Origin: Sanghuangporus weigelae
Lineage: Eukaryota > Basidiomycota > Agaricomycetes > Hymenochaetales > Hymenochaetaceae
Length of the DNA stretch: 64,000 nucleotides
Reading direction: 5' to 3'
Assembly: GCA_033182465.1 (NCBI GenBank)
Contig: CP137325.1
Coordinates: 2,046,001-2,110,000, forward strand
The notes below the pieces were generated by a model, which made no database searches, was not told the DNA's origin, and worked only from the letters and a program-made list of their open reading frames with translations. A program made the position numbers and the translations under genes. Positions 7,643 to 64,000 of this stretch are shown here, piece after piece. Positions within the stretch are counted from its first letter, which is position 1. The number at the start of each line of letters is the position of its first letter.

Positions 7643-9995
7643 TCATGTGGATCGTCCGTATCTAGTTTCTAGGCGTAGTAGCTCCCTACATGTGACGACG
7701 TCAGACAAACACATTGCTGAACCAGTTGGACACCTACATAATTTGACCTCACTTCTGCTTGCGGTTGCAAACATCCCACCCTTGGGATTAAAGTCGACGG
7801 AAATGACCTGGTCATTATGCTCGGTGAGAGTCCTCACTAGCTGCCCATACTTCAACGTCCATATCCGCGTTGATCCATCCTTCGAACTGCTCGCAACCCA
7901 TTTCGCGTCCTTTCCCAGTGCGATACTAGTGACTTTGACAGCATGACCGGTGAACTCTAGTGGAGGGATACGATCCGCTGTGACGTGCCATTTTTTGATC
8001 AAATTTCCACCACAACCAACTATCCTTTTGCCACTGGGAGAGAAAACGAGAGATTTGACGGGCCCAGAAAGTCCATCGAGTCTCCGGGTGAGCGACATTG
8101 TGTGCTCATCCCAGATTCTCACGATCGAGTCTCTGCCGCCGGTGGCGATACTCTGTGAATCAGGAGACACTGCCAGACTAATAGCTGCGGCTTGTGGACC
8201 GTCACCCGATAGCTTACGTTCGAGACGAGAGTAAGTGTCCCTTATACGAGAGCTACCGTCCAGTAGGGAGTATACGACGTATCTTCCCGACGGAGCACAT
8301 GCTAGAGATAGGATTTCGTAATTCGCTTTTGGGAAAGAATCCAGAATTTCTTTTCGAAAGATGCTCCAAACCTGCAGCGTTGTCAATCACTGTTATTGCT
8401 AAATTAGCATCTTATCCGAAGGAAATCACGCACTCGAACTGTTCTGTCCGAAGCTGAGGTTACCAAGACATCCGGATCGTGATTACAGCTTAGATTTAGA
8501 ACGCGATTCTCCGCTGTACCGGAAACGCCATGGTCCAGCTCGCTGTAAAGTACAATCTGAGATCCGAAATATCAACGGTGTGGTCTACTCACGAATCAAA
8601 TTGACCCGACTGAGCATCATACAAGCGGACAAAACGATCAAATGCTACTGCCACGAAAGCTCCATCTGCGGTAAAGCGTGCGCAGCGAACTTCCCTAATT
8701 CGAATAGAAATATTTTGTATAGCCTGGTGCAATAGGTAGACGATCGAGACCTACTCATGGTTGAACGCTCTAACTTTATGGTCAAGCTTGACGGTTAGAG
8801 CAGGAGAGACTAAAAAGTAGACCAAACTCAGCATTATGCGTTGTTGAATTATGCAGACGAACCTCGGCCATTCTGAAGATTCGTGGACCCATTGCGTTCA
8901 AGATGATCCTCTATGTGCTCATTTGGGCATAGCATCTTCAATGCCTCATGCATAGTTATTCGTTCCTCTGGGTTTAAGTTCCAGCATTCTTCGTACACTT
9001 TCTTAAGCAGTAAACTACTCGGCCTCTTGGGATCAGGGATATCGAACAGCGGAAGTTTACCCCTGCCGATAATTAATAGAACCTGTTTCTCTATCTTGTA
9101 CTGGTAGTAAGGTATCTTTCGCATCAGGAGTTCCTTGATGAGAACGATTGAGTCAGTTTCTGATGAAACGTTGATGGAAACTTACGTAGATTGTCATTCC
9201 GAAAGCCCAAACGTCTGTCTCCTTGGAATGGGTATTTGACCCAGCTACAAGTTCATAGGCCAGCCAACGAACGGTTCCTTTTTCTCTGGAGCTTGGTCGT
9301 CCCAGTTCTAGACTTGCTTCAATAATGCGTGATGAACCAAAATCGCAGATGATTGCTTTTGGAGGGATCGAATCGGAAACCAGCACGTTTTCCTGGATAT
9401 CGTCATAAGCACGTGAATTTCCTTCGGATAGGCCGTACTCACGCCCTTTATGTCGGAGTGTATCGCATCCATTTTGTGTAGATAGTTCAGTCCTTTCGCT
9501 ATGCCAACGATCTTGTCCCGTTAAGATTCAGAATAAGACTGAGACGAACAAACGCACAAGATCAAAGACATCATAGTCTTTGTTTTCCGTCACAAATTTC
9601 CATGCAGAACCCCTTTCCATCCACTCTGAGATGAGAGACGGATATCCGAGATCATCGAAGGCGTAGCCAAGAAGGAAAGCAACGTTATCATGCTTCAGTT
9701 TTGACCAGATGTAAATCTCTTTTTCAAAAAGCTAGTCACAATATGAGCAACTAATAAAATCCAGGAGGAACAAAGTTCGCACCTGCTTTATGTCCGAACC
9801 GAGATGAAAGCGTATGTGTTTGATGGCTACCTTCTTTCGCTTCTGCGAGTTCGGCTGTCGTACAAAACCAATAGAGACGTCCGAAAACATGCCCTTGCCT
9901 CCAATCTTCTTCTGGTCATAGATGGTCCCCGAAAGATCGAGGCCTTTGAGCCTATCGACCACATCCTGACTGATACCAAACTCCCTTAGATTCAT
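7643..9995 (-). CDS. TKL-type protein kinase fused to Tup1-like WD40 propeller (kinase A1)
   Basis: Nine exons (9783..9995, 9558..9731, 9443..9511, 9186..9392, 8863..9133, 8755..8809, 8593..8694, 8434..8542, 7643..8371) agree in phase and give 642 residues. A short leader ending LKGLDLSGTI precedes the kinase. Glycine loop IGGKGMFSDV, beta-3 lysine in VAIKH, alpha-C glutamate in LFEKEIYIW, catalytic loop HSDIKG, DFG in ICDFGSS, and LAYEL in place of APE are all present. The C-terminal half has WD40 blades such as DSIVRIWDEHTMSLTRRL and DGSTRIWTLKYGQLVRTL, in the order and style of the Tup1 corepressor propeller. Catalytic Asp, Lys and DFG are kept, so activity is expected; H-S-D makes it a non-RD kinase. 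It is the minus-strand neighbour of kinase A2, with starts facing apart across 0.5 kb. Target and partners are unknown. Confidence 0.85.
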
Positions 9996-10489: not shown

Positions 10490-11970
10490 ATGGCGTGCGT
10501 ATAAATTCTAAAAAATACGCGGATAAATTCATCTCATCTCTGGAATTCTCTCAGGCCTGAGACCTGGTCGCAATGTAGCGGCCCAGTCCGTCAGGAGCTT
10601 CCTGAGGACCTCGTTCACAATCGCAACTTTGTCAGCGGGACGGCATACTCTGACTTGTACAAAGCGTCGAGGGCAAGCGGAAGCAAGATGGCCATCAAAC
10701 GCCTGAGATTCTACACCGAGAAGGACAAGAATATGGTACGTGGACCTTTGTATTGACTTCCGTCTTGTATCCTGCCCTGAGCCATGTCGTAGCTTATTGA
10801 CGAGTTACACGTGTGGTCCAGCCTTCGCCATGAGAATGTGTTGCGACTGAGTGGATATTCCTTTGATTCATATGGATATCCGTTAGTCGTTACTGACTGG
10901 ATGGATGACGGATCCGCTTGGGATTATGTCAATTCTAATCCGGACTGCGACGTTGTACGACTGGTAAGCCCTATTCATTTCTATCGGTTATTCATTGATG
11001 CGACCTTTTCTTTTCTCTAAGCTTACAGAAACTGCAAGTGGCTTGGCGTACATTCATGACATGCAAGCAGTGCATTCGGATGTCAAGGCTGTGTGTACAC
11101 TAGACGTCTCCATTCATAGCGCACCGGTCTTATTCTTTTGTTTCCTTACAGGATAATGTTCTCGTATCACGTGATGGCCACGCCCGGCTCTCCGATTTTG
11201 GCGTTTCTCGCATGGTCTCGACAAGCTCGAGCATGGCAAACCTCAGTACTGGTCCCTCGGGAACAATACGCTACCTACCGCTCGAATTTTTTTCAGGTTC
11301 AGGTGAGGAATTGATGTACACTACAAAGTCTGATGTATGGGCTTTCGGAATGACCGTATATGTAAGCTCTGTTAATTGCTCATGAGTCTCTGCTTGCTAA
11401 TGGGAGGCGGCGTTTTAAAAGGAACTCATGACGCGGAAACGCCCGTATGATGGTTTCTCGGAAGATGAAATATGCTTAGCTATTATGGACGCGGAGCTAC
11501 CCTCATTCCCTGAATCAAATGAATCCTACTCTACTCCAACTCGAAAAATGGCCGTACAACAAGGCCTCAAGGGAATATGCAATGACTGCTGGATTATCGA
11601 CCCGGGCCCTCGTGCTGACATGGAGTCCATCGTCTCCAGGCTGGGCCGAATCTGTACTTATAGTTCTGACGGAGATAAAATGTTCGCGCAGGACCGACGA
11701 ACACCAGCTCGCTCGGGCACGGCTGACAGTAGTTCTTCCTCATCCTCGTCCTCATCTGATTACACACTTTGCGACTCTGAGTCGGGCCAGTGTAAGACAT
11801 TCAGGAAAGAAGGCGAGGATAGTCTTTACTTCGATGGTGTAACCGGGAAAGACGGCATGCACTGCGCCCAAGGCGTACAGGTGTTACCTCAAACCCGAAG
11901 TCCGTCACTATGGAGTACGTTCGTGGATCAGATTCTCTCTGCGTTAAGATTTTTTCACTTCGTGAAGTAA
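10490..11970 (+). CDS. TKL-type protein kinase with Ser-rich tail, apparent frame break (kinase A2)
   Basis: Predicted exons are 10490..10494, 10555..10736, 10793..10963, 11022..11090, 11152..11361 and 11422..11970. Conserved parts: FVSGTAYSDLYKA (glycine loop), MAIKRLRF (beta-3 Lys), HSDVKA, SDFGVSRM, LPLEF, SDVWAFGMTVY and NDCWIIDPGPRADM. The tail holds a run of ten serines and ends in aromatic residues. The glycine-loop part and the beta-3 part lie in different frames: exons 1 and 2 sum to one base too many, and the shift falls near 10660-10685 (GCGGGAAGC). Either the gene carries a one-base insertion, the assembly has an error, or translation starts at the ATG at 10688 and the N-lobe is shortened. 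The rest is open and in phase. It lies head-to-head with A1 and 1.2 kb before A3. Confidence 0.75.
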
Positions 11971-13149: not shown

Positions 13150-14324
13150 ATGGCTACTGCCCAGCTACTCGAAGTCGCATCCGGCCCTCAGAATCTGGCG
13201 AAATTCGGTATAAACCAGGAGGTGATTGACAGACTGCAAGGCCTTGACCTTTCAGGTCGAGTCCACGATGCCAAAATCCTTTGCGGAGCCGGCGCGTACG
13301 CTGATGTATCTCAGGGAGAGCTGAAGCCTCTGGTTCTGGATGGTACTACTACCCCGATAGCCATCAAGCGCATGCGCTTTCATCTTCGTGATGATATTCG
13401 CGAAGTGAGTACTTCAGCTTTTTTCTTGGCTTCTCTCAAGGCCTCATTACCACGACATTCTGTAGCTTTTCCAAGAGGAAATCTATGTCTGGTCCAAGTT
13501 CAATCACGAAAACGTCATTCGCTTACTCGGGTATTCTTTCGATACCTACGGTTATCCTTTGCTCATCTCAAACTGGATGAGAGATGGGTCCGCGTGGGCT
13601 TTTGTGAATTCCCATAGGGAGGCTGATGTCTTACCGCTGGTAGGCAGGTTTCATTTATCTATCTGCATAATGAAAATAACCAATAGTAGATCGTCGGAAT
13701 AGCGAAAGGGTTGAAATACTTGCATGAAGAAATGGACGCGATCCATTCGGACATCAAAGGGGTACGTCATTTTTGCATGGCGCAGAATTCATATGCTGAT
13801 TCCGTCAAGATAAATGTGCTTGTTTCCAGCTCCAACCCTCCTCACGCGATCATCTGCGACTTTGGGATGTCGAGGATTGTAAACGCAAGCTTGTCATTGG
13901 GGAGACCGAGTCCGACAATGAGTGGGACTACTCACTGGTTAGCTTATGAAGCATTCCAACACGACGAACAGCATAATCAGCCCAACTTTGAGTTTACATA
14001 CACGAAGAAAATGGATGTTTGGGCATTCGGTATGACGGTCTACGTAAGATCCTTATCTTTTTTTAATAGTCGAAGAAGAGATACTCACTCGTGTGTCTTT
14101 CCAAGGAACTCTTTTCGCGAAGGGCGCCCTATCACAAATACCGTAGCCAATTGCAGGTCATACAGGCAATCACATCGCGTCAACTTCCGCATTTTGATCA
14201 TGATATGGGTGACCATCGTGGTGAATTGTTCAAGAATATATGTCAGGGATGCTGGAAGTTCGACCCAGAGGAAAGAATCACCATTCGCAGGGTATTGGGC
14301 ATGCTGCCTCGTGATGGCCATTGA
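13150..14324 (+). CDS. TKL-type protein kinase, compact form (kinase A3)
   Basis: Five exons (13150..13404, 13466..13639, 13690..13761, 13810..14043, 14106..14324) are all phase 0 and give 317 residues. The leader LQGLDLSGRV and glycine loop LCGAGAYADV precede beta-3 AIKRMRF; then come LFQEEIYVW, HSDIKG, ICDFGMSRI, LAYEA, MDVWAFGMTVY and GCWKFDPEERITI. The protein stops right after the kinase domain, with no WD40 part, unlike A1. It is nearest to A1 in sequence (DVIDRL versus EVIDRL, shared LSLGRPSP/LELGRPSS in the activation segment), so A1 and A3 look like recent duplicates of one kinase module. Catalytic residues are complete with H-S-D in the loop. Cytosolic location is likely since no signal or membrane segment is seen. 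Confidence 0.85.
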
Positions 14325-16873
14325 TTGTGAAGGAGAGAGGAAACTGGACGTTTCAACAATCGTCAAGGGTTGCGGTTCTTTTGCGTAATGATCCTGAACT
14401 CGACGAGAGATTGGGACTACGAAGGGTTAGATACTTTGGCATAGATATGATCGCCTAAACGAATTTTATCTGTAGTTTTACATACGTGGACAAAACAAAC
14501 CTACCTTTTGTCGGGTCATCTGAAGGCACTGACACTTGGTTACTCACCTGGAGCTACGCAGACGAGAGGTCTCGAATTTGACCTGACCATTTCTAAATAT
14601 CCGATTCTTTTTTCGCAGTATTCACTCTTTCTCCCGATTCCAGCACCATATTGGCGCAGTGCAGACCAGAAACTGAGTAAGTGCTTGAAATTCGTATTTG
14701 ACGGAGTCAGATCTATGATTCCACTAGTTATCCCCAGTCGTTTCACATAGATGCTGTCAGATGGCATCGTGTATCTTCTGTCCGTCATAGCCTATATGGC
14801 TCTGAAGCTATAACTTCCTTCTTCCACTTCAGTTCCAGGTATACGTTCGCAGGAGTATCCGCACTGATCGACCCTTTGCCTTTACGAGGTCGACGCGGTG
14901 AAGAGCCTGAAAGCGATATCCACATATATGGAGCGGTTATACATCAAGTGCTATAAACCCTGGAATTTGTTGTGATCAGCATTGAGGAATGAGCTAGTAG
15001 AACGACAACAACTAGATAAGCGAACCACGTTTCCGCTGGCCTGATAGGAAAAGTACACTCGGAATGGAGGAATAAAGCGAAACTGACTCAGCAGTGTCAA
15101 CATCGCTTTCATCTTCGCCAGAGTCACAGGTTCGCAGGGCCGATACAATACAGACAGGGAAGATGACGGTTTTTGTCAAAGGTCACGCTAATGTCGCGTT
15201 GACCAGATGACGTGACCAGACGCGTCAAATAATTCCCACGACTTCATAATTGTAGATGAGGCCAACCCTTCGCCTTCGCATTCATTCACCTCTTCCCCAT
15301 TTGTGCCTTCAGCTCAACCTCAAAGCTACTTCACGATAGCTACTGCGGCACTCCTGTAATCGCGTCTTTCAATCACCCAATCTGTCCATTATGGTCTGTG
15401 TAAACAATTCCGGTGAGGAAAGGTCTCGATCGAACAACTGACACGTTGTCCCAATCGCACTTCGAAGGTACACAAAATGCACCTTTCCACTCTTTGAAGG
15501 GACCGGATCACCATGCTCACTGATGAAGGCCCATTAACGTCGACGAAAGGCATTCTCACGTCTCATGAAGACCAGATCGAGCAATGGGCAACGTGAAAGT
15601 CGGTGTACATGACGAGTCATAGCCAGTCGAAACCAATTCGTATTGCTATCTGCTTCTTGGTGTGGATACGTGGCATGAAAATGAAGACAGGGAAAATGTC
15701 CCACTTCCAGAACACAATCCTTCAGTAATCCCGTTTACGCTTGAAAAATGTCAATCTTCGAGACGACTCTGTCTCGAAGCATCTCATCATGCTCCTGGGG
15801 ATCTATCTCGAATTCTGGACAAGTCCGTATGAGTTCCTTGTGTAGCTAAATCGAGTCAGTATGGAACATTTGATCGAGCGAGACACACGTACGTGGCTCT
15901 CATTTCAATATAATGATGAGTCCATCGGATCTATGCTATCAAGCGTACTGACATGTTCTTTGCACGCTATGTCCTGTAGGCCCTCAAATACGCATCCCTA
16001 AGAAAGCTCTGAAACTTCGGGATTCATCCAGGCCGCCTAGAGCATTGCTTCCTGTCCTTCTGACAATCGCTGAATCTGCATGAACTTTCCGATATCTCTG
16101 CGTGCACTTTGTTGACCTGTGAAAGCTAGCCGAGTGGTGTCGTCAATCCGCGCCTTCGGGACCAAAGCAAAGCTTATCGGCCTCGGTGAAGAATCGTTTA
16201 TCGATAACATGTCAAATCGCTTCTCATGCAAACGCTTGGTAGCGGCTGTCACTAAATAGGAACTTTTTGGGGACAAACAAAGTAGGTCCGAGGTAACTGT
16301 CTGGCTTGAGGAGCAACATTGACGAGCATTTGTGATCCGTCTGTGCGCACCTACAAGTCATGTCGAATTCTCGATAATGAATGCTCAGCCGCGCAGTTCA
16401 TCGTCAAGCCCTTCTTTCTTTGAATATATGTAAAGGCAGTCAGCGAGATTTTCCAAAGACAAAAGACGAAGTGCGTGACCCTCCAGTTGAGACTGCAAGA
16501 CAGCATGATTTGGTGCGATGGCCTCAGCAGGGACCTCTGTCCTCTTGCGCTGCTGGCTGACACCATGTCCATGCTCGGCTGATACTCTGAAACAGTGATC
16601 CAAAATCCACCCAATTCGGACACATTTTTGACCTGCCTACGCCGGTTTGTCCGGACACTCAACCTCCGTTTTGGAGCTGCCCTTTATCGGTATTGCCGTG
16701 GGCTAGCGTGGCCTCCCTGCCTTTCCCAAGGCAGTTGTTTTTAGCAAGCGTTTGCAACCTGCCGAAACGGGCCGCGACTGGACAGAACGTCTTCGTGCCA
16801 CGGTGGCTAATTGTGGACGTCAGGGAGAATGCCATATTGCTGGGTCTATGGAAATATGGCTTGTCCGCTGAGA
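14325..16873. other. Long intergenic region with a short shared fragment and a possible decayed gene
   Basis: No confident gene. 14511-14575 is about 85 percent identical to 20701-20765 (gggtcatctgaaggcactga at its start). On the minus strand, 16603-16385 and 16276-16037 contain helical-looking open stretches (QSQLEGHALRLLSLENLADC) that could be exons of a decayed gene, but no family is recognised. The remainder is without signal. Confidence 0.45.
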
Positions 16874-33048: not shown

Positions 33049-34100
33049 TTATCTTGGAGGGGGCATGGTTAATCGAACGAACTGATCATGCACTTCAGGG
33101 ATAGCCTGAAGGTAAGGGGCCAGAATTTGGGCATGTTTGCGCAGATATAAAGTAAAGGCATCAGATGCCCAATGTCCGATCGCCTTGACAACATCAAAGG
33201 GAACCCCACAAAGGAGATATTCTAATGTGGCGCCTATACGAATGCTATGGCCATGCAAAGGATTGAGGCCAGCCTCGTGGGCCGCTCGCTCAAGGCGCTT
33301 AAGGAACATGGACTTGGTAAGCGCCTGGTGACCGCTGTCAGTCCGAAAAGCAAAGAGAGGACCGTCGGGGGGAGGGAAATTTATGGCCAGATGGTTTTGA
33401 AATGCAGAGAAAGGGTCGCTAGGCCCATCTTGGGCGGCCCAAAAGACTTCTTCTCCGTTTGGTGCTGTTTTGGTGGTAGGCAGAGAGAAGGCACGTACTT
33501 GACGTCCTTGGCGGTCTGTTCGCTCAGAGACGTCTGATGGCTTGACATGAAGACGAGAGACAAATGCTGACTGATTTGGAACAGTGAATTCTCCAAGGCG
33601 AGCACAAGCATAAAAGGATGTTGTCAGGCAGGCAAAGACGGCAGCGTCTAGAGGATCTGAGAGGTCAAGGCAAGCATGAAGGGATTCAATTATTGCAGGC
33701 GTGTATGGCGCACGCAGTGGACGTTTGGAGGTTTCAGGGGTAAGAGCACCTGCACCGCGCAGGAGCGACTTGAGTTCAATTTCATTTATTTCCCATGGTA
33801 CACGATGGAGAACATGCCAGGCTCGAATGCCAAACACGTAGTTCGCAATTGAGGATGCTGAGTAAGAACCAGCCAGGGAGGCAATAAAACCAGCTAACAG
33901 ATCAGGGGAACAGGGTGCTCGAAGTTCCTCAGTGATATTTAAGTCATCGCAAAACCGATGAAATTGGGCAAGCCCAGAGCCATAAGTTTGCAATGTTGAT
34001 TCTTTGAGTGACAACGCAAGTACGTCAACCACACGGTTTTGTAGACCGAGGGGAATGACAGAGAGAGAGACCGTTGAAGGAGCCGGCTTCCAAAGCTTCA
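33049..34100 (-). CDS. Tyrosine recombinase domain of the DIRS-like element
   Basis: The region shows the Arg of box I in ACARLGEF, the H-x-x-R pair in GHSIRIG, and the final HWASDAFTLYLR with the catalytic Tyr. N-terminal SAM-like helices precede it. Such enzymes insert the circular DNA copy of the element without a DDE integrase. Confidence 0.85.
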
Positions 34101-34141
34101 GCCTTGATTTTGCCGGGACATCAGGACGCAGAGTTTGGGGG

Positions 34142-36397
34142 TCAAGAGCACCAGAACTGTTCGAAGTCTCGGAGCGATCGATCCTCATTATCGAAGAGCT
34201 CATCCAGGGGGCTCGAGATGGGGGCCTTCTTCGGCTTGGGGAGCACGCTGGGAGCCGGCTGGTCGGAGATCTCACCAAAGAGAACTGGCTCAAGGAAGGG
34301 AGTGAGCACCGACGGGAGAGAGATGATGGGGAGGCGAGGCCCTGGAGTGTAGATGCCCCGAGAGGGCTGGTCAGCAGGGTTGGAGGCTGATTGAATGTAT
34401 CGGAGAATGAGCGAGAGGTCATTCTCCGAAACAAGCGCGTGGACACGTTTGAGGACGTCGTTGACAGCCTTGTTTCGACTCCGCCCAGCCCGCCATCCAC
34501 CAAGGACGACTGTATTGTCACAGTAGATCTTGACCTTGCTGCCATAGGGTAAGGTGAGTAGGAGAGTGCGGAGGAGGAGCTCGACTCCGACAGCTTCAGC
34601 CCACGCAATCTCGCGACCATCTTTCTTCCAGCCCGGCCGTAAACGGTATGCGCCCCAAGAGTGGAGTTGGAAGAGGCCGATTCCAAAGCCTGAACTTGCG
34701 TCTGAGTATGCATAGAGTTCAGGGAACTCGTCAGTGGAGGGGATTCGACGGGAGAGCGTTGGAGAGGAGAGCTGGGCTGTCCACCAGTCAAGTTCGTCCC
34801 GGACTGACTTCGCAGGTCGGTGAAGACAGTCTGGACGACTACCGTAAGTTGGTAGCATGGATTCCAGGCCGAACAGGTAAGCCTGGCCCGCAGGGAGGAC
34901 ATGACTAGCATGGAGTAGCTTTCCATAAAGTTCTTGGACGTCTTTGAGAGTGTGTCGCCGTCTGGAATGCCACTGTTGGATGGCCAACATGTATTTTGAG
35001 GTTTTCGCAGCACTAAGCGCAACAGTTTTGGTGTCCAAGTCCCAGAGGAAACCCAGGTACGTGACTGTCGAAGCAAAGGGGGTAGTTTTCTCAGGTTTCC
35101 AAGGGACACTAAGACGAAGGGAAATCTGGTCAACATGACCTGACGAATAAGCATACAAAGAATCGTTTGAATAAATCGTTGATTCAGGAAGAGAAGGGGT
35201 TTGAGAAGAGAGAGCAGCAAGCGATCTGAGTGGAAACTCCATACTGTCGGAAAATTCCTCGAGACGGCCATCAGGAAGAGAATCACCAATGAAAAGAAAA
35301 CGAGATCGGACTTGTAAGCGTCCGATTTGTTTGACTCGGCCAGCCCATACGGTACGCTTTTGATTATATGAATGTAACTCAGACCGTAGAACACGAAGAA
35401 AAAGAAAATCGTCGACCCATTTGATGATGGGTCCGACTCCATAACCTGATAGGATATCACAAAAGGCATCTGCCAGGAGTCCCCAGACTCCACCTGCAGA
35501 AGAGAGACCAAAGGAATTCGCAACATTGAGTGCGAAGCGATCATTCTCTGATAGACGGATGACAACACCCGGCCATTGGTCTGGGGCCAAAGAAATGGTG
35601 CGAAAAGCATCAGCAACATCGCGACAGGACCCTTGAGAATTAGGAGGAAGTCGAAGTAAGAGTAGGGAAGCCGTGAGGAATGAGCCCCAGGTACAAGGGA
35701 AGAGGTCTGAATCAATACGAGAGTTAATAGACGAGACGGAAATGGAAGGCGAAATAAGCCTCTGGTTGTAAGGAAAGGATAGGTTCTGTACCAGACGAAA
35801 TTTGTCCGAATTGGGTTTGGGCACAAGGGAGAGAGGGGATGATTGAAACGGCCCAATAAGGGCTTCCAGTTGAGAGCGTGAAAAAGGGCCGAAATAACGG
35901 CCGGCCGAGAATTCCGCAGAAACAATGGAGTCAAATATATCTTGATGTTTGTATAGCGAAGCGGAGTTCGAGGGACAGAAAGAATGAGTAATCGCAGGGA
36001 CACCCGCTTGAAATCCATTATAAAGAAAAGGTATAAGGGTGGGGTAGCGAGAAAGGAGGTCAAAACGAAGCAAGTCGGAATGCCACTCAGAATAATTATA
36101 TGGGGAGGAAGGAGGGAATCTATTTCTGAGCGAGTTTGCATCCTGTTGCTCCATGGGTTGGAGACCCACACCCGGAACATTCGTGTAGGTAAGGGTGTCG
36201 AGTGGAACATCCAACAAGAAGTTGGAAGCGGATACAGACAGGTTGGCCTGCTCGGTTGAGCAGGGCAGCCCCAGGTCCTCGATGACAGCGGGTGGGCTGG
36301 GAGCCATCCCAGAGCTTCGCTCTGGAGCATGACTGGACATCGTGGTCCCCAAAACCAAGGCAGACGGCACAAACGATGGGGATCGCGTTTGCGCCAT
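34142..36397 (-). CDS. Reverse transcriptase and RNase H region of the DIRS-like element
   Basis: Palm motifs include SLVPKPNSDKFRLVQNLS, the Asp in SCRDVADAFRTISLAPDQ, and IIKWVDDFLF, a VDD form of the YxDD box. The RNase H part has AYSDASSGFGIG, an acidic AWAEAVGVELLL, and IYCDNTVVLGG. The set is typical of DIRS and related retrotransposons. Confidence 0.85.
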   Translation of the reverse strand: MAQTRSPSFVPSALVLGTTMSSHAPERSSGMAPSPPAVIEDLGLPCSTEQANLSVSASNFLLDVPLDTLTYTNVPGVGLQPMEQQDANSLRNRFPPSSPYNYSEWHSDLLRFDLLSRYPTLIPFLYNGFQAGVPAITHSFCPSNSASLYKHQDIFDSIVSAEFSAGRYFGPFSRSQLEALIGPFQSSPLSLVPKPNSDKFRLVQNLSFPYNQRLISPSISVSSINSRIDSDLFPCTWGSFLTASLLLLRLPPNSQGSCRDVADAFRTISLAPDQWPGVVIRLSENDRFALNVANSFGLSSAGGVWGLLADAFCDILSGYGVGPIIKWVDDFLFLRVLRSELHSYNQKRTVWAGRVKQIGRLQVRSRFLFIGDSLPDGRLEEFSDSMEFPLRSLAALSSQTPSLPESTIYSNDSLYAYSSGHVDQISLRLSVPWKPEKTTPFASTVTYLGFLWDLDTKTVALSAAKTSKYMLAIQQWHSRRRHTLKDVQELYGKLLHASHVLPAGQAYLFGLESMLPTYGSRPDCLHRPAKSVRDELDWWTAQLSSPTLSRRIPSTDEFPELYAYSDASSGFGIGLFQLHSWGAYRLRPGWKKDGREIAWAEAVGVELLLRTLLLTLPYGSKVKIYCDNTVVLGGWRAGRSRNKAVNDVLKRVHALVSENDLSLILRYIQSASNPADQPSRGIYTPGPRLPIISLPSVLTPFLEPVLFGEISDQPAPSVLPKPKKAPISSPLDELFDNEDRSLRDFEQFWCS

Positions 36398-38219
36398 GCC
36401 GAAAAGGCTCGGCCTTTCGAGGCCGAAAGGAAGAAGATGTGAGCGGTGGGGAGTTTACAGTGTCTGTGCCGAAACGACGCTTTCGAGAACCAGTGACCCT
36501 GGGTGGGGCAGCTGAGCTCGAAGCCTGATGGAAAGATGCATGGGCATACAGACAGACGGACAGACAGACAGACAGACAGATAGACAGACAGAGAGAAATA
36601 CAAACAGACATGTTTGCAACAGAGGAGTGAATCATCGCAGAAAGGCGGCATCACAGTCAGATAGGACAGCGGCATCGCAGAAAAGCGGCATCACAACCAG
36701 ACAGAGTTGTGGAACAAGAAGATCATCACCAAAAGGTGGCATCGCAGAAAGGCGGCATCACAACCAGAAAGAGTTGTGGGACAAGAAGATCATCACCGAA
36801 AAGGTGGCATCGCAGAAAGGCGGCATCGCAATCAGAAAGGATTGCGGAACAAGATAGATATATATAGGTGATAAAAGGGGAAAAGAAGAGTATATCGTAC
36901 ATATGAAGGATGATGAGACCATGTACAGGAGAGGCAGAGATGAGACGACAACTTACGGACGTGGAGGCCATGAGTTGTTGGAGTTCGGTGCATTGCTTTA
37001 GATGCTGAGCCGCTTGGAGTTCCTGTAGGATCTGATTGAACATAATCTCATCAACCCGATTGACAAAAGGGTGGGCGCCGGTCTTTTCGAGGTCATTGTG
37101 CCACATAGTGCGAATGCGAGCAAGGTAGACCAACAGAGGGTGCTGGCCATTGATAGTCGGATGAAGGTTGGACGGATGGGAAAGAATATTGTGAAAAAGG
37201 TCATCCCACATATCAATGACTTCGGGTGGCCACTGAGCATTGCGAATAGCATCAAGAAAGTTGAGTTGAGCTTCCCTGAACTGGTGTAGGTCGAGCATGT
37301 CGTCTGAGGGAACCTTCTTGGAGAGAAATGACGAGGTAGCTGGAACCAGAGCAGAAGCGCCGTCGACAACCTCCAGACGATAGGAGTGGTCAGTCAGAGA
37401 CTGCTGGTGTGAGTCAACTTGGCTCTTGAGACCGCGAGTTGTGAAATGGAAAAGAGGGACGTGTTGAAGCTTACGAAGCCGGGCCTCAATGGAGGAATGC
37501 AAGACATGAGTCGACCGACGGTCTTGAAGAAGATCAGGACCAAACTGAAAAGCATCGGGAACCGGAGCAGCAGCAGCAGCAGCAATGACGGGAGGCGCAA
37601 CGATATGAGCGGCAGCAACAAAGGGAAGGTGGGTGGCAGCAGCAGCTGCCGGAGGAGGGAATACTGGAGCGGCAGCCGGAACGGGGACGCGCGGTAACGG
37701 AGCTGGGGCCGGAGCAGGAGCAGCGGTGAGAGCAGCAGTAGAAGCAGCAGCAGCAGCAGCAGCAGCAGATGGTGCGATGGCGATATCAGCAGGTGCAGGG
37801 GCCGCAATCTGGATGAGGGGGATCGGCGACGCGGGGCGTGAGTTTGCACAAGAGCCAGCCGACGGAGCCAGAGAAGCACCAGAGTTTTCTGGTGCCTGAT
37901 TTGCAGCGGCACCAAGATCAACAGCCGAGGACGGACCAGCGACGGGAGCAGAAGAGGCGGGAGCCGAGAGAGAGTGACTTGCCTGATTAGAACCGTATGT
38001 GTTCCACCATATCTTAGCCTGAGCTGTCCAAATCCGCCAAGTCTGTTCCATAAACCACTTAATTTCAGCATCATCCAAGTTACTCAGAGTTCGTTTGTAG
38101 TCTCGCCGAGCGTCGTCGTAAAGAGCCGAGGAGAAATCGGGCATGGGTATGAGGTCCGGGTCGCACGGAATTCGGTCAGGGTGAGGTGGCACAGCATTAC
38201 GACGTGTGCTGATGGCCAT
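36120..38219 (-). CDS. Gag-like region of the DIRS-like element
   Basis: Contains an N-terminal helical part, Ala/Pro-rich linkers and two zinc-knuckle-like motifs (CAVCLGFGDHDVQSC and CSGCGSPTHGATGC). Assigned from position upstream of the reverse transcriptase and from the knuckles; sequence similarity to named gag families is not claimed. Confidence 0.55.
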
Positions 38220-38343
38220 ACTGACAGAGTTTGAAGAAGAGCAAACTAAACGAATGTATAAAACGGAGATACGGAACACGAGCAATGAGAGTTTCGGTAT
38301 TTGAAATGAAATTTGCGACAAAGTTTCTTAGCTACGAGGTGAC

Positions 38344-55322: not shown

Positions 55323-58101
55323 TTATCGAATTGATATCTCACATATCCGTGCGTGCCTATCTGCACATCCGACGGAAACCCGACTGTCAGACTGACTAAA
55401 GCTGACCGAGAGAGCAGGACCGTATGAACACCGTAACATAAGCGCAACAGTCCCGGTACGGTTCTCTACGATACATATTGAATGGTCCTTCGAGACACTC
55501 GCAATCCATCTTCCATCTGGACTCATTGAAGCACCAATTATGCAGTCTCGGTGACCAAGGAATGCCATGACATTTACACTGCCACGTTCACCATCACGAA
55601 AAGCAAGCTTGGCTTCGAGACTACTGCTATCGGTCACGCCGTCAGGCCGACCTCCGGTAGGAGGATCGGGAAGTCTTCGCTTTGTCCTTGAGCACCGTAT
55701 CTCGACACGGTCGATATTGGTTATGTCATTCGCAGAACTCGACGATTTTTTTCCCGGAGGAAGTGGGAGACGACGACCAGGGACAGCAACAAGAGCACTT
55801 ATGTCCCATTGCTTAACCGTCCTATTAGCGCTTCCACTTAGGAGAAATGTACCATTCGGCGAGAACGAGACGCAAGATACAGACTCCTGATGACCTCTGA
55901 GTCTTTCTACAAGATTTCCGCTCTATATCTCCCAGATACGCACTACAGAATCCGAAGAGCCTGCAGCGACCAGCTTATCGTCCGGAGAGATTGCAACACA
56001 GTTCATTTCCGTGAAAACGCCAGGAGGCCCTTTAGACTGGAGAACCTTCTTTAGACCTTCGCCTACGTCCCAAATCCGTACAGCAGAGTCACTCGATGCG
56101 GAGACAATGAATTTCCCATTGTGAGAGAACTCAATCGAGTGTATCTTCCGTCGATGTCCTTGGAAGATGTGCCTGACTCGCCTTGTCATGATCTCCCATA
56201 CTTTAAATAAGAGAAGTGGAGTCAAGGATGCGTGTCTTTAGATAAGAGGCCAGTTTTACCTTGATAGAGTTACCTGCGGCTTCGAAAGCTATGTACCTGC
56301 CATCCGGGCTGAAGCAAAGACTTTGTATATATAAACCGGCGCTCGAATCTAAGCTTCCATCATATAAAGAGCTACTTCTGCGTTAAAAATAGTCTATGGA
56401 GACACAGCAATGCGCACCAGGTTCTTCGCCAAGTTTTTGTGTCGTATATCCTGATGATCCTCTTACAACACGCGGCAAGGAATTTACCATCTGCGGAAAA
56501 TCGAACACATTCGACGGGGCTAAGATATCATCATTAGGTTGTCTCCTCTTCCGAATTGTTTTACTCACCTTTCATGCTTCAGAGTCCGACCCAAATGCAC
56601 ATCATGTATCTGTTCTATGTATGGGTTTAAAACGGCGAACCATCCTTTGCCATCCTCCCTCAACTCTGCTTTCTTTGGGAACGAGCCAATTAACGGAGGT
56701 TGATGTACGACGAAGGCATAAGTATTATTAGTAGGGCCTTGCGTTGCACGAAGGGCAACCAGAACGGTTTCTCTGCTTGCTGGCGATTCCAAGGCAACAT
56801 CCAAAGATAAAAAAACCATGACGTCAATAGAAGAAATCATTTCAAGACCATAGAATCCGAACCGTTTTTAAGTCCATTCAAACCACTGTCCGAGATCACA
56901 GGTGGAGAACACCTAGTTGCATCTCCTGATCTCTTCTGGTTATAATCCTGAGCCACTTGTTTTGACGTCAGTCGAACAATAATGGCGTGCATGTCAGGTC
57001 TTCTATCAGGCTCGTGCTTCCAACAATCAAGGCAAATATCCCAGATATCTCGAGTTTGATCCAAAGTTTGCGAAGTTCGGTATTCAGATTGCTGAGGTAA
57101 AATTGGCATTTCGTGGAGTATTATGGCCGCTATGGACTGCGCGTCGGAAAGATCTGCATATGGCCTCTGCCTTGCAAATAGCTCCTAAAATTGTCATATC
57201 AGTAAATTTGTTCATCAAGGTGGATTTCCCAAATTTCTCACGAATACGGTCATGCCAAATGCCCAGACGTCACTAGATTTAGTATGGCCGACAGTTCGGG
57301 TTGAATACTCGAGGAGCTCGCAAGCAAGATAGCGTGATGTTCCTCTTATTCCGCTGCTGGGAATCACTATGCTTCGTGACGCACTTGTTATGCGAGCGCA
57401 TCCAAAATCGCACAGAAGAGCCTCACCGTCGGTCGATACCAGAACATTGTCCTACACGTGATGAATCAGAACGAAAAATGCCTTCAGCTCGTTGTAGTTC
57501 ACCGATTTAATGTCTGAGTGAACAATGCCTTGGTCATGTAAGTATGCAGGGCCACGAGCAATACCAACAATCTACTTGACTCATCAGGAATTCGTAATAG
57601 TCTACAAAGGACATTCTGACCAGTCGTAATATGTCGCATTGCACATGTGCTCTCACATATGACCATGCTGATCCTCTATCCATCCATTCCGAAATGAGAA
57701 GGGGATATCTGTATTCGTTAGCAAAAGCATAACCGAGCAAAGGGAGAACATGGGGATGATCGAGCTTCGACCATACGTAAATTTCTTTCTTAAAGAGCTG
57801 TAAAGGCGAGTTTCTGTGAGAAAGCCAGTGCAGTCATATTACCGTTTTGATGTCTTCCTTCAGATAGAATCGCAGGGGCTTGATAGCGACCCTTGTCTTC
57901 CCGCGACCTGGAAGGTTGCAACGTCCTTTGAAAACATCACCATAGCCTCCGCCTCCGATGAAATTCCTCTCCTTGAAGAGGACCAGCGAAGAGAGATCGA
58001 GGTGCTTTAACTGGTTGAGTATTTCAGGAACGATTTTTCTCTAACGGATTTGCATTTGACGCTTCATCACTCGAGCCGGAGTCTGAGCTCGAATCGTCCA
58101 T
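55323..58101 (-). CDS. TKL-type protein kinase fused to Tup1-like WD40 propeller (kinase B1)
   Basis: Same plan as kinase A1. The kinase has FIGGGGYGDVFKG, VAIKPLRF, LFKKEIYVWSKLDH, VHSDIKS, LLCDFGCARI, LACEL and SSDVWAFGMTVF, then CLDCWKHEPDRRPDMHAI. The C-terminal propeller has KVWEIMTRRVRHIFQGHRR, HSIEFSHNGKFIVSASSDSA, VRIWDVGEGLKKVL, ISPDDKLVAAGSSDSVVRIW and VSCVSFSPNGTFLLSGSANR. A linker with RRLPLPPG precedes FLGHRDCIIGASMSPDGRWI. Order and spacing fit the Tup1 propeller closely. The acidic leader MDDSSSDSGSSDEASNANPL from 58101 continues in frame with kinase B2's leader pattern, but a run of five A (about 58033-58037) puts it one base out of frame with VPEILNQLKHLDLS. This may be a sequencing error or a real break. 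The kinase and WD40 exons are open. Confidence 0.8.
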
Positions 58102-59871: not shown

Positions 59872-62800
59872 TTAGCACGGCATCTGCATTGTATCTATAC
59901 GACAGATCCGCCTTAGCTCGTCGAGAACCGATTGCATTGAGGGACGATCTGTCGCATCATGCTTCCAGCAGTCATTGCAGAGACTCTTGATGACTTCCAA
60001 GGCACTAGATTCAATGCTTGAAACGAATGTGGACGGGAACTGAGGTAATGCACGTTTCATAATGGCATACACCACTTGCGTATCGAGTAGGTTGGCATAG
60101 GGACGCTCGTGCGTAAAGAGCTCCTTCAACAGAAAATCAGTGGTCTGAGCGACTTTCGTAGGTGAACTGTACGCACAAACGCCGTCATCCCGAATGCCCA
60201 CACATCCGTCTTTGTTGTATGGCTTCCGGAGACTTCCCCGCCTAAGTCCGGAGCCACAACAAGTTCATAAGCAAGGTATCGAGATGTTCCTTTGACACTT
60301 GAAGTTAATCTTGCATAACTTCGACTAGAGTCGACCATGCGCGAACACCCGAAGTCACATATGAGAGCATTGCCGAGGTCCGAGACCATGATATTATCCT
60401 AGATAATTTCTAGCGAACAATGTTCGAACAGCGAATAGAGATGACCATACCGATTTGATATCCGAGTGCACAATACTTAGCGAGTGAAGATACGTAAGGC
60501 CGCTGGCGATCCCAATTACCTGGAGAGGTCTTAGGCTATTGAACGTACACTCAGGCGAAGCAGAAATGAAGAACGTACAAGGTCCATTACGTTACATGAG
60601 GGATTCCTGGTAACATACTCCCAAGCAGACCCGTTTTCCATCCATTCCGAGATCATGAGCGGGAATCTAGTTGAATCGTCGACTGCAAATCCGAGGAGGG
60701 GGAGAATATTAGGGTGCTTTAGTTTCGACCAGACATATATTTCTCTTTCGAAAAGCTGCAAAAAACAAGTCGGAATCTAATCCAGTATCAGACAAGTTAA
60801 ACTACCTACGGTCTTTATGTCCTTTTTCCACCAGAAACGCAACCGCTTGATCGCTATTTTTACCTTTCTCTTTCCCGAGACCGCGCAGTTGCCTATCGAA
60901 ACGTCGCCATATGTGCCACCGCCGACGATTCTGGTATCCTTGAAAACGATGGAATGAGAAAGATCGAGATGAGCTAGTTCAGCAAGTATTTCGGGTGCAA
61001 CTGCCGTTAGTGGATTGGAATCCTCTCTCGGTGGGCCCTCAAGTGGTTCATCAGTGCGGAATCCTTCATCCTTCGGTTCGTCGCCAGAAAGTTCTTGTTC
61101 AAGGGCCCTTTGACCATCCTCGGATGACTCTTCTTTCCTATGCTCAAGCACACCTTCCGCATCCAGCTCTACAGTCTGCTCATCGTCAACCGCTCGGTCT
61201 TCATTCAGTGCGAGCTCGCGCATCTTAATGCTATCGGGCCTCCACAATGTATGTGCTGTAGCTTGTGTTGGCGGCTGATGCATGTTACTCGCAGTAATCG
61301 GTGCCTCCCGGCGTTGCTCAGCGAGCCTCCATTCCTCTCCCCTTCTCCTCTCCTCTCTGCTTTTCTGTTCTTCTGCAAGCTCCTGAGTCCTGCGTTTGAG
61401 TTCCTCTACTTTCACATTGAGCTCCTCGTGTTTACGACGCCGCGCATTGATCTCATGCTCCCTTTCCATTTCAAGCGAATTCTGCTGCGTCTCTGTCGTC
61501 GCCTCCTTCTTCAGGGCCCCCTCTTGCCGCATCCGCTCGACAATCTCACCCTTCTGACGACGTGATTTCCGCTCCTCTACCTCCTGCGTATGCCCACTTA
61601 GCTCATCTTCTTTCGTCGCAAGTTCGTCTTCCATGTGCCTCCGCATTTCCGCTTTTCGCTGGCGCTGCTGCACGAACAAGCTCTTCTGTTTCTCAAAGTC
61701 AGCTTCTTGAGCTAGTTTCGCAACTTTCAACAGTAATTTGCGCTGGAAGACGAGAGCTTCTTCCCTTTGACGCATCATTTCTTCCTCCTTCAACGCATCC
61801 TCTCCCTTTCGAAGCTGTTCTTCTTTCCGGTATTTGTCTGTACGACTCTCGGCTTCGTTCATGGACCTGAATTCTTCCCTGGTGCGCTGCTCTTCGAGCT
61901 CAAGCTTTCTCTGCTCCTCAAGCAAATATCGCCTCTCCATCAACGCTGCCTCCTTCCTGAGAAGTTCCAACTGACGAGTTTGCTCAGGATTCGCAGGCTC
62001 CCCATTCTCCAGTTCTCGTCTCCGCTCCGTTTCCCTCCGCCTCCGCTCCTCTTCTTGCCTCCGTCTCCGCTCCTTTTCGCGATGCTCTTGGTGTCGGAGT
62101 TCTTCCTTTCTGTAGAACGCCAGAGTCTCTTCTTGTCGTTGAAGCTCCTGGCGCTCTTCCTCTTGATGTCGAGCTTCCTTCTCTTGTTGGTCCGCGATAC
62201 GCTCGGTTTCTATAATTTCTTCCTCCTTGAGATGTTTCTCTCCAGGTCCTAACTGTCTCTGCTCCCCGGGAAAATACCGCAATTCCTCTCTGCGTGGTTC
62301 CAACTCGCGAGTCTGTCCAGAAATCACGTCTTCTCTTTCTTCGAACTCTCCTTTTCTTTTCCGCTCTGCTTCCAGCCTCTCCTCGTAGAGCCTGCGGTAC
62401 CGGAGCTCCTCTTCCCGTTGACGAAGAGCCAGGTCCTCCTCCCGTCGCTGCGTCTCCAGCGCCTTCTGAGTCAGCACCTTGCCTACTCCCTGAAGTTGTT
62501 TCCGGCGTCGCTCTGCGAGTCTCTCTGCTTCCAATTTGGTTCTAAGTTCCTCTTCCTTAATACGCCGCTCTTCAAGTATATGTGTTCTCCGAGCCTCAAG
62601 AAAATCCTGCCACTCCTTCCTGATCGGTTCCAATGGACGGGTCTGCCCATCAACCGTGGTAGCTTCGAGTCCCCGTTGGGAATGGTTTTTCTCCTCCGAC
62701 CAGCCCTCATCGTCACTTCTTCCCCTCACGAGCTCGCGTAAATTCGGTTCGGGGATACGTTGGTGATTTAAGAGTTCCGTTTCTCGGGTACGTTGAGTAG

Positions 62801-63584
62801 ATTCGGGTAGATCATGGTCATTGGAGACGCCCCTCTGCTGCTCAACATTTCGCTCTAGCCGTCTGGCGGATAGCAGGCCCTGTTCAGACACGCGCTCATC
62901 TTCCGGCGTTATGTGACCAGATGAAACGTTAGGCGAGATGGAAAGAGATGCGGGATATTGCTCAACATCTTCATCATCGTCCGTGAAGTTCCCAGTGTTA
63001 TCTTCATCGCCATCCGTCTCGGGATCTAACCCACGAAGTCTCCTCTCCCAGTCCTGAATATCGAGTTCTCCAATTTGCGGGACGTCCTTCAGTAACATTC
63101 CAAGATGATCCTCGTCCTCGTCATCACGGTGTTGTGGTATCCATCTTTCCACTGCTTGCTCAGATCTTCTCAAATGCTTCATAAATCCATCGCTGCGTTG
63201 TTGCTCGCCTAAAGAGTTTTCCTCTACGACCTCCTGATCTGCCTGCAATTGAGAGGTCGATGATCGTTGGCGTGGATTGCGCGCATCGGGGCGCCGAGAA
63301 GAAGTGTCGTTAACATTTGCGACGCCTCCTTTCCGCAATTCCTGCAGCTCGCGCGCGTAGGTGTCTTGGGTCGGAATCCATCGTTGATACGGAGTAGATT
63401 GTGTATGCCTTCGCTTCGGGACTGATACCATCGATCCCGAGTTCGCTGATGAAGATGGAAGCGTCTTCCTGCTCGTCCTGCTCGTTCCTTCATCCGAATC
63501 AGACGCATCGGGAGAGGTGCTAGGAGAAGCTGGCACGTTGCGAGGTCTTCGGCGAACTTCTGCACGAGAATATCCCTGACCCAT
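59872..63584 (-). CDS. TKL-type kinase with possible N-myristoylation site and very long coiled coil (kinase B2)
   Basis: Exons 60810..63584, 60579..60755, 60451..60519, 60177..60398 and 59872..60123 are all phase 0 and give 1164 residues. The start MGQGYSRAEV fits the MGxxxS N-myristoylation pattern. Residues about 15-250 are polar and Ser-rich with acidic patches; about 270-820 form a nearly unbroken charged coiled coil (EERRRRETERRRELENGEPA style). The kinase begins after PEILAELAHLDLSHSI with VGGGTYGDVSIG, IAIKRLRF, LFEREIYVWSKLKH, VHSDIKS, ICDFGCSRM, LAYEL, TDVWAFGMTAF and NDCWKHDATDRPSM, then ends within 15 residues. Catalytic residues are complete, with H-S-D. The plan suggests a membrane-bound, self-associating kinase. 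The coiled coil lies in one 2.8-kb exon, while the kinase keeps the intron pattern of its relatives, so the front part looks like a later addition. Confidence 0.88.
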
Positions 63585-64000
63585 CTTCGACTTCCGATGC
63601 GTTATGTCGGATCCTGGTTCAAAGGTATTTGGTTACTCCGTTGGTGCGAAGAACTAGCACTTACAGGTGATCTGACGGGTATAGCAAGGCTCTCCAGAAT
63701 TTAAGGAATGCCGGATGTTCTGCTTAATTCCACAAGAGAAAGGAGTAGTGAATATGTATCAACTGGTACGGAATACGAGCTCAGAGCCTCAGATCCACGG
63801 ACACGCTTGAAGCAGTATGTAGAGTGACCCGTCTCAGAAGACAGAGCTAAGTAAAAACGTGCGAACATCGATATCGCCATTCATTCAATTATCGGTGAGT
63901 GGCGGTAATTCTCAAGTTCCATGCGGCAGTGATGGTACTGGATTTCACAAATTATTACATAATATTCCCAATAGCTTGTCTAAGCACGCTTTGCACACAT
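63585..64000. other. Upstream region of kinase B2 to the window edge
   Basis: AT-rich; no gene is seen. The kinase promoter should lie here. Confidence 0.5.

Follow-up and report, generated by a model that had tools for sequence, protein, structure and literature searches.

The window analysed here is a stretch of 64,000 nucleotides from Sanghuangporus weigelae (C8 2046001-2110000), and it raises the question of whether a TKL-type kinase has been fused to a propeller that descends from the corepressor Tup1 and, if so, what the propeller would do for the kinase. A sequence-only reading had placed such a fusion at two loci of the window, had likened both propellers to Tup1 in blade order and had suggested that they could couple the kinase to DNA-bound repressors.

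Kinase loci of the window and their gene models

The window carries five kinase loci of one family (B1, K2, K3, A1, and A2; Table 1), and its genes are interrupted by short GT-AG introns of about 50 nt. The arrangement of a kinase followed by a Tup1-type propeller occurs twice, at B1 and A1, where Pfam places a WD40 propeller after the kinase on the same strand. Propeller remnants were also sought beside K2, K3, and A2, and nothing below E 0.27 emerged outside A1 and B1; likewise, whole-genome searches that covered 33.87 Mb in 13 contigs, judged by eye, revealed no propeller at further kinase loci among the matches listed. Both the A1 and the B1 kinases match PF07714 and hold the catalytic Lys, HxD, and DFG of a TKL-type domain, with the motifs VAIK, HSDIK, and DFG readable in the sequence, and the best 60 of 77 PDB matches of the kinase are a mix of receptor tyrosine kinases and Raf.

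Table 1. Positions in the window of the two kinase/propeller loci, their parts, and the neighbouring kinases
Feature	Position	Strand	Basis or remark
B1, predicted fused kinase/Tup1-type propeller gene, 642 aa	7643-9995	-	open spliced model; runs from 9995
B1 exons 1-5	9995-9783, 9731-9558, 9511-9443, 9392-9186, 9133-8863	-	
B1 exons 6-9	8809-8755, 8694-8593, 8542-8434, 8371-7643	-	
B1 kinase domain, residues 33-287, with VAIK, HSDIK, CDFG	8936-9899	-	PF07714 E 1.9e-39; coordinates from the exon table
B1 junction intron, 53 nt, GTTCGT...TTTTTAG, from kinase frame to propeller frame	8810-8862	-	by eye; identical in second copy
B1 seven-bladed propeller region; a single exon for blades 3-7	7643-8809	-	PF00400 WD40 E 1.9e-36; Tup1 blade order
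A1, kinase and Tup1-type propeller, probably a decaying gene	55323-58101	-	Pfam, reading-frame faults; runs from 58101
A1 kinase exons 58034-57844, 57797-57621, 57571-57503, 57451-57242, 57184-56843	56843-58034	-	PF07714 E 5.9e-42
A1 Tup1-type pre-propeller stretch and propeller	55323-56789	-	first boundary uncertain
A1 propeller-half exons	56789-56569, 56519-56418, 56374-56260, 56201-55323	-	
A1 in-frame TAG in blade 4	55923-55925	-	common to both A1 copies
A1 frame slip near gene start	58035-58040	-	absent from second copy
A1 intron with changed acceptor before the blade-3 exon (Tup1 position)	56202-56259	-	second copy keeps an acceptor
K2, neighbouring kinase, same family	10550-11650	+	starts at about 10550; no propeller found
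K3, neighbouring kinase, sister to the B1 kinase	13190-14370	+	starts at 13190; no propeller found
A2, neighbouring kinase, same family	59914-61004	-	starts at about 61004; no propeller found

A segmental duplication has left each fusion present twice. Second copies of A1 and A2 lie about 99 kb to the left, where the A1 stretch is 97% alike, and those of B1, K2, and K3 about 108 kb to the right, where the B1 stretch is 99% alike; moreover, two stretches of the window, taken as a test, have counterparts at roughly these offsets that are 99% and 87% identical. The duplication spans C8:1997405-2182853, its offsets being about 99 and 108 kb, and the pieces tested are 87% to 99% similar.

B1 reads open through eight GT-AG introns of 46-62 nt, and none of the three faults of A1 (slip, acceptor, and TAG) is seen in it. 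Its kinase domain ends at residue 287 and its propeller region starts at residue 312, so that 24 residues and one 53-nt intron lie between them and leave little room for a second promoter. This junction intron was found by eye; the intron scan yielded 0 candidates for B1, its anchor having overrun into the following intron. With a score of 5.4, the junction donor falls below 8 of the 13 donors used for training, a set that includes the B1 donor itself. The second copy (C8:2161846-2164176) keeps GT and AG at all eight introns and shows no coding indels relative to the first; the two copies differ by substitutions and an intron indel. In a test that comprises 20 changed codons in total, the 642 codons hold 12 synonymous and 8 replacement changes (dN/dS about 0.20, P 0.0005), of which 8 and 5 fall in the propeller part (dN/dS 0.20, P 0.0051) and 4 and 3 in the kinase part (dN/dS 0.21, P 0.044). 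By this computation, replacements have been selected against in the kinase half as well as in the propeller half of B1. At least B1, in its exon structure, reads as one predicted fused kinase/propeller gene, from which we infer a single transcript and a single protein.

A1, the copy flagged first, is the worse of the two arrangements. It fails to read through: the frame slips near 58036, the acceptor in front of the blade-3 exon is changed, although an alternative splice form is conceivable there, and a TAG lies at 55925-55923. The second copy of A1 (C8:2002144-2004867) is free of the slip and of the acceptor change and carries the TAG, which, being common to both copies, is hardly a single read error. 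Moreover, the terminal TGA of the A1 kinase frame overlaps an ATG of the propeller frame, and the intron scan found no strong short intron that joins the two: the best donor among the 12 listed of 29 candidate joins, which are 107-245 nt long, scores 3.4, the level of the weakest training donor. Between the A1 copies, 9 synonymous and 13 replacement codons are counted (P 0.051). A1 is probably decaying, at least in its propeller half, and may be regarded only as a former or uncertain fusion, whereas the predicted fusion is trusted for B1. The claim of two fused genes in the window is thus borne out in part: kinase and propeller are present at both loci and B1 forms one open spliced model, but 58101-55323 is not confirmed as one readable gene. 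As a separate observation, the 500 nt over the A1 kinase/propeller junction (56601-57100) show zero differences between the A copies, whereas the compared 3.6-kb A stretch is 3% different between them.

Origin of the propeller

The genome holds one full Tup1 gene as found here (Tup1a, C8:2227063-2229487), with a Tup_N domain and a propeller, located about 117-119 kb past the window end and some 21 kb short of the end of its contig. Moreover, a truncated Tup1 near-copy (L005, C1:4361898 to about 4363000), some 130 kb short of the C1 end, contains Tup_N and blade 1, and no propeller is seen in it after that blade.

The likeness to Tup1 had been put forward on the basis of blade order and of two strings, VRIWDVGEGLKKVL and FLGHRDCIIGASMSPDGRWI, which are indeed present in blades 3 and 6 of A1, respectively. 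The order was assessed by a register test in which every blade of A1 or B1 was scored against every blade of Tup1a over the 5040 permutations of order. The straight order is the best of the 5040 for A1 and B1 alike, scoring 735 in A1, where no other rotation exceeds 355, and 479 in B1, where none exceeds 300, and the blade nearest to each blade is its own counterpart in 6/7 rows and 7/7 columns for A1 and in 5/7 rows and 4/7 columns for B1. When B1 is compared directly with A1, 14 of the 5040 permutations are as good as the straight one or better, the straight one counted in. Conversely, the best rotation is the best permutation in none of 16 seven-blade control sets, which were drawn from seven genes for generic WD40 proteins in this genome and represent repeat-rich arrays rather than the range of WD40 families; their gap between the best and the second rotation is at most 0.10 of the mean, vs 0.98 for A1 and 0.61 for B1. 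A fixed pattern delimited the control blades, and those of A1, B1, and Tup1a were delimited manually. The blade order of both propellers is therefore that of Tup1, as had been proposed.

The gene structure of the propeller is also that of Tup1. Specifically, Tup1a, A1, and B1, aligned by eye, have three common intron places in the propeller, in phases 2, 2, and 0 (the first of them in B1 lies within one codon of a match), and in all three genes blades 3-7 are encoded by a single exon. A1 is 49% and B1 34% identical to the Tup1 of their own genome, and at the columns that distinguish Tup1a from yeast Tup1, A1 agrees with Tup1a over the yeast protein by 44 to 12 and B1 by 29 to 16, which suggests that the source was probably the Tup1 gene of their own lineage, copied as DNA with its introns.

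Similarity searches give a less uniform picture. In the whole genome, blade 1 of A1 retrieves the A copies first and next both Tup1 loci (E 2e-6), at 70% over 30 residues and 69% over 29, while the B copies, at 46% (E 0.003) and 48% (E 0.006), are no clearer than the next generic match, also at 0.006, so this search supports A1 only. The best genome match of the A1 propeller exon, besides its own copy, is Tup1a (52%, E 3e-44), with generic arrays from 2e-24 down. The whole B1 propeller instead ranks generic WD40 arrays ahead of Tup1, both in the genome (4e-21 vs 1.6e-15) and in the PDB. An N-terminal query of B1 places Tup1 first in the PDB (5e-15) with U5-40K a close second (2e-14), its best stretch on 1ERJ being out of register, and the A1 blade-1 query places a repeat-rich protein first by the summed score of 14 stretches, none of them above 4.5 bits, followed by the two Tup1 chains, each with one stretch of about 29 bits. 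Total-score rankings in the PDB and Pfam were rejected as a test of identity since a repeat-rich WD40 protein tops the PDB list by total score even for the true Tup1a, with a best single stretch of 104 bits vs 263-273 bits for yeast Tup1. As search rankings are unreliable or narrow for B1, its case rests on blade order and introns. Taken together, the computation shows, at the level of sequence, that the A1 and B1 propellers are Tup1-derived.

Role of the propeller and number of captures

The Tup_N domain has a role in the Cyc8-Tup1 complex. A whole-genome search with PF08581 (Tup_N) returned three matches, all at the two Tup1 loci, and none at A1 or B1, so the fusions should not enter the Cyc8-Tup1 complex in the way that Tup1 does. 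Moreover, the top face of WD40 propellers, Tup11 included, binds partners through the blade R1 residues and some of their neighbours, according to PMC3419727. At the putative R1 sites, deduced from the four-letter pattern given in that article, yeast Tup1 is identical to Tup1a at 7/7, A1 at 0/7, and B1 at 1/7, one B1 site falling in an alignment gap; with three further sites included, the counts are 10/10 for yeast and 2/10 for both A1 and B1. The putative partner-binding residues of the Tup1 top face are thus mostly replaced in both propellers, and the loss exceeds general divergence in A1 (P 0.0044) and not in B1 (P 0.17). Likewise, neither A1 nor B1 keeps the letters found at Y489 and N673 of yeast Tup1, which are experimentally determined functional residues according to PMC2614187. 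Conversely, Lys650 of yeast Tup1 is kept in both, and the blade-2 tyrosine is kept in A1. The suggested coupling to DNA-bound repressors is therefore not supported, and the propeller would most likely act as a docking module with new partners rather than in recruitment to the usual repressors.

The reading that we consider likely is that B1 is a kinase with a repurposed Tup1 propeller that serves as its docking module, and that A1 is a related, decaying arrangement. A TKL-type kinase, one of a cluster that lies toward one end of a long contig, would have gained the 3' part of a Tup1 gene at the DNA level, namely the propeller with its introns and without the N-terminal domain. The intact product, represented by B1, would consist of an N-terminal kinase with its catalytic residues, a short linker, and a seven-bladed Tup1-derived propeller that may dock the kinase to a partner other than the repressors usually bound by Tup1, while A1 would represent a related arrangement in decay, at least in its propeller half.

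The alternatives concern either the integrity of the genes or the nature of the propeller. Kinase and propeller may be two adjacent genes, or a kinase beside a decaying Tup1 fragment, and A1 fits this description through its overlapping TGA and ATG, the lack of a strong short intron between its halves, the TAG in both copies of its propeller, and the changed acceptor in the window copy; for B1, the distance of only 24 residues and a 53-nt intron between the domains and the selection against replacements in both halves argue otherwise, and on the whole this alternative is unlikely. A degenerate locus, in which each fusion is a pseudogene or an artefact that arose when a duplicated segment was assembled, would agree with the three lesions of A1 and with copies that are 97% and 99% alike and lie about 100 kb apart, but it is very unlikely given that B1 is intact and under selection in two copies that differ by substitutions and an intron indel and that the A1 TAG is found in both copies.

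As to the nature of the propeller, the convergent likeness of an ordinary WD40 domain to Tup1 is hardly credible: raw searches place generic arrays first for B1, and the A1 blade-1 search leaves B1 among the generic matches, but convergence is opposed by the blade register, judged against controls that are repeat-rich arrays, and by the common intron places. The recruitment of the kinase to DNA-bound repressors in the manner of Tup1 would accord with the descent of the propeller, and Lys650 in both loci and the blade-2 tyrosine in A1 are compatible with it; we nonetheless deem it decidedly improbable in view of the missing Tup_N match at the fusions, of top-face R1 residues retained at 0/7 sites in A1 and 1/7 in B1, and of the lost letters at the functional Y489 and N673 (PMC2614187).

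Whether the likely docking module arose by one capture or two was addressed with a kinase tree of 11 rows, the five window loci and six further loci taken from a search with 162 exon-level matches; the six outside rows were pieced together by matching to A1, at least one of them (L072) has a stretch that is seemingly out of frame, and the bootstrap did not settle. B1 is sister to K3 (100/100), and forcing A1 and B1 into one clade lowers the lnL by 40.6 (p 6e-5), in a comparison made after the tree was seen. Two changes of propeller state are needed, a count that holds for the sample of 11 kinases. As the A1 and B1 kinases are not sisters in this sample, the propeller was captured twice, or once and then repeatedly lost. 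The propeller tree (Tup1a, yeast Tup1, A1, and B1) gives a support of 36/0 for A1 with B1, the alternatives having p 0.377 and 0.379, and A1 and B1 have common letters against both Tup1s in 8 of 285 columns. It is a tentative proposal, somewhat short of probable, that two separate TKL-type kinase lineages in one region toward the contig end each captured the nearby Tup1 propeller, which would then be a recurrent kinase docking module freed from the partners of Tup1.

Relation to known proteins and further features of the genome

Proteins that contain a kinase and a WD40 propeller are already known as such. PkwA (PDB 5yzv), which we take to be a bacterial protein of this kind and whose chain is among the PDB matches of the propeller queries, resembles the fusions described here in joining a kinase and a WD40 propeller in one protein, and differs from them in that theirs is a fungal propeller with the blade order and introns of Tup1; in the light of these intron places, common descent of the kinase-propeller pair with PkwA is unlikely. 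Tup1 itself (the gene at C8:2227063-2229487 and the yeast protein, PDB 1ERJ) has the seven-bladed propeller, the blade order, and the intron places in common with A1 and B1, whereas the latter have no Tup_N match, a kinase in its place, and mostly replaced top-face residues.

The TKL kinases of the Agaricomycetes (among them the FslK lineage, PMC3937382, and the Laccaria expansion, PMC2838846) are similar in their PK_Tyr_Ser-Thr kinase, their arrangement in a gene cluster, and their catalytic motifs, while A1 and B1 differ from them in their C-terminal propeller, and the word WD40 is absent from the main text of both articles. No TKL-Tup1 fusion appeared in the titles or abstract starts of the open literature searched. 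In the present case, blade order and introns lead back to a single named donor gene of the propeller, whose binding face has changed since the capture. If B1 is expressed, it would show cleanly how a scaffold for repression became a module that targets a kinase, and the choice between single and double capture is testable in related fungi. There may also be implications for how tyrosine-kinase-related kinases, with functions that have yet to be worked out, expanded in mushroom-forming fungi (PMC3937382).

Elsewhere in the genome, C6, C7, and C10 contain many clustered WD40-array open frames, a good number of them 750-1365 codons long, which we take to recall NLR-type WD40 arrays. Within the window, a 951-codon open frame of skewed composition (60777-63632, minus strand) is by arithmetic in frame with the A2 kinase start and matches nothing in Pfam at E 0.001; it may represent a long extension at the N terminus of A2. 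Lastly, two open frames of 1213 and 533 codons (33049-36690 and 36726-38327, both on the minus strand) lie in a strongly skewed stretch, and the former has a Phage_integrase match (E 3.2e-4) that is below the curated cut-off; the frames of 33049-38327 are perhaps a tyrosine-recombinase mobile element.
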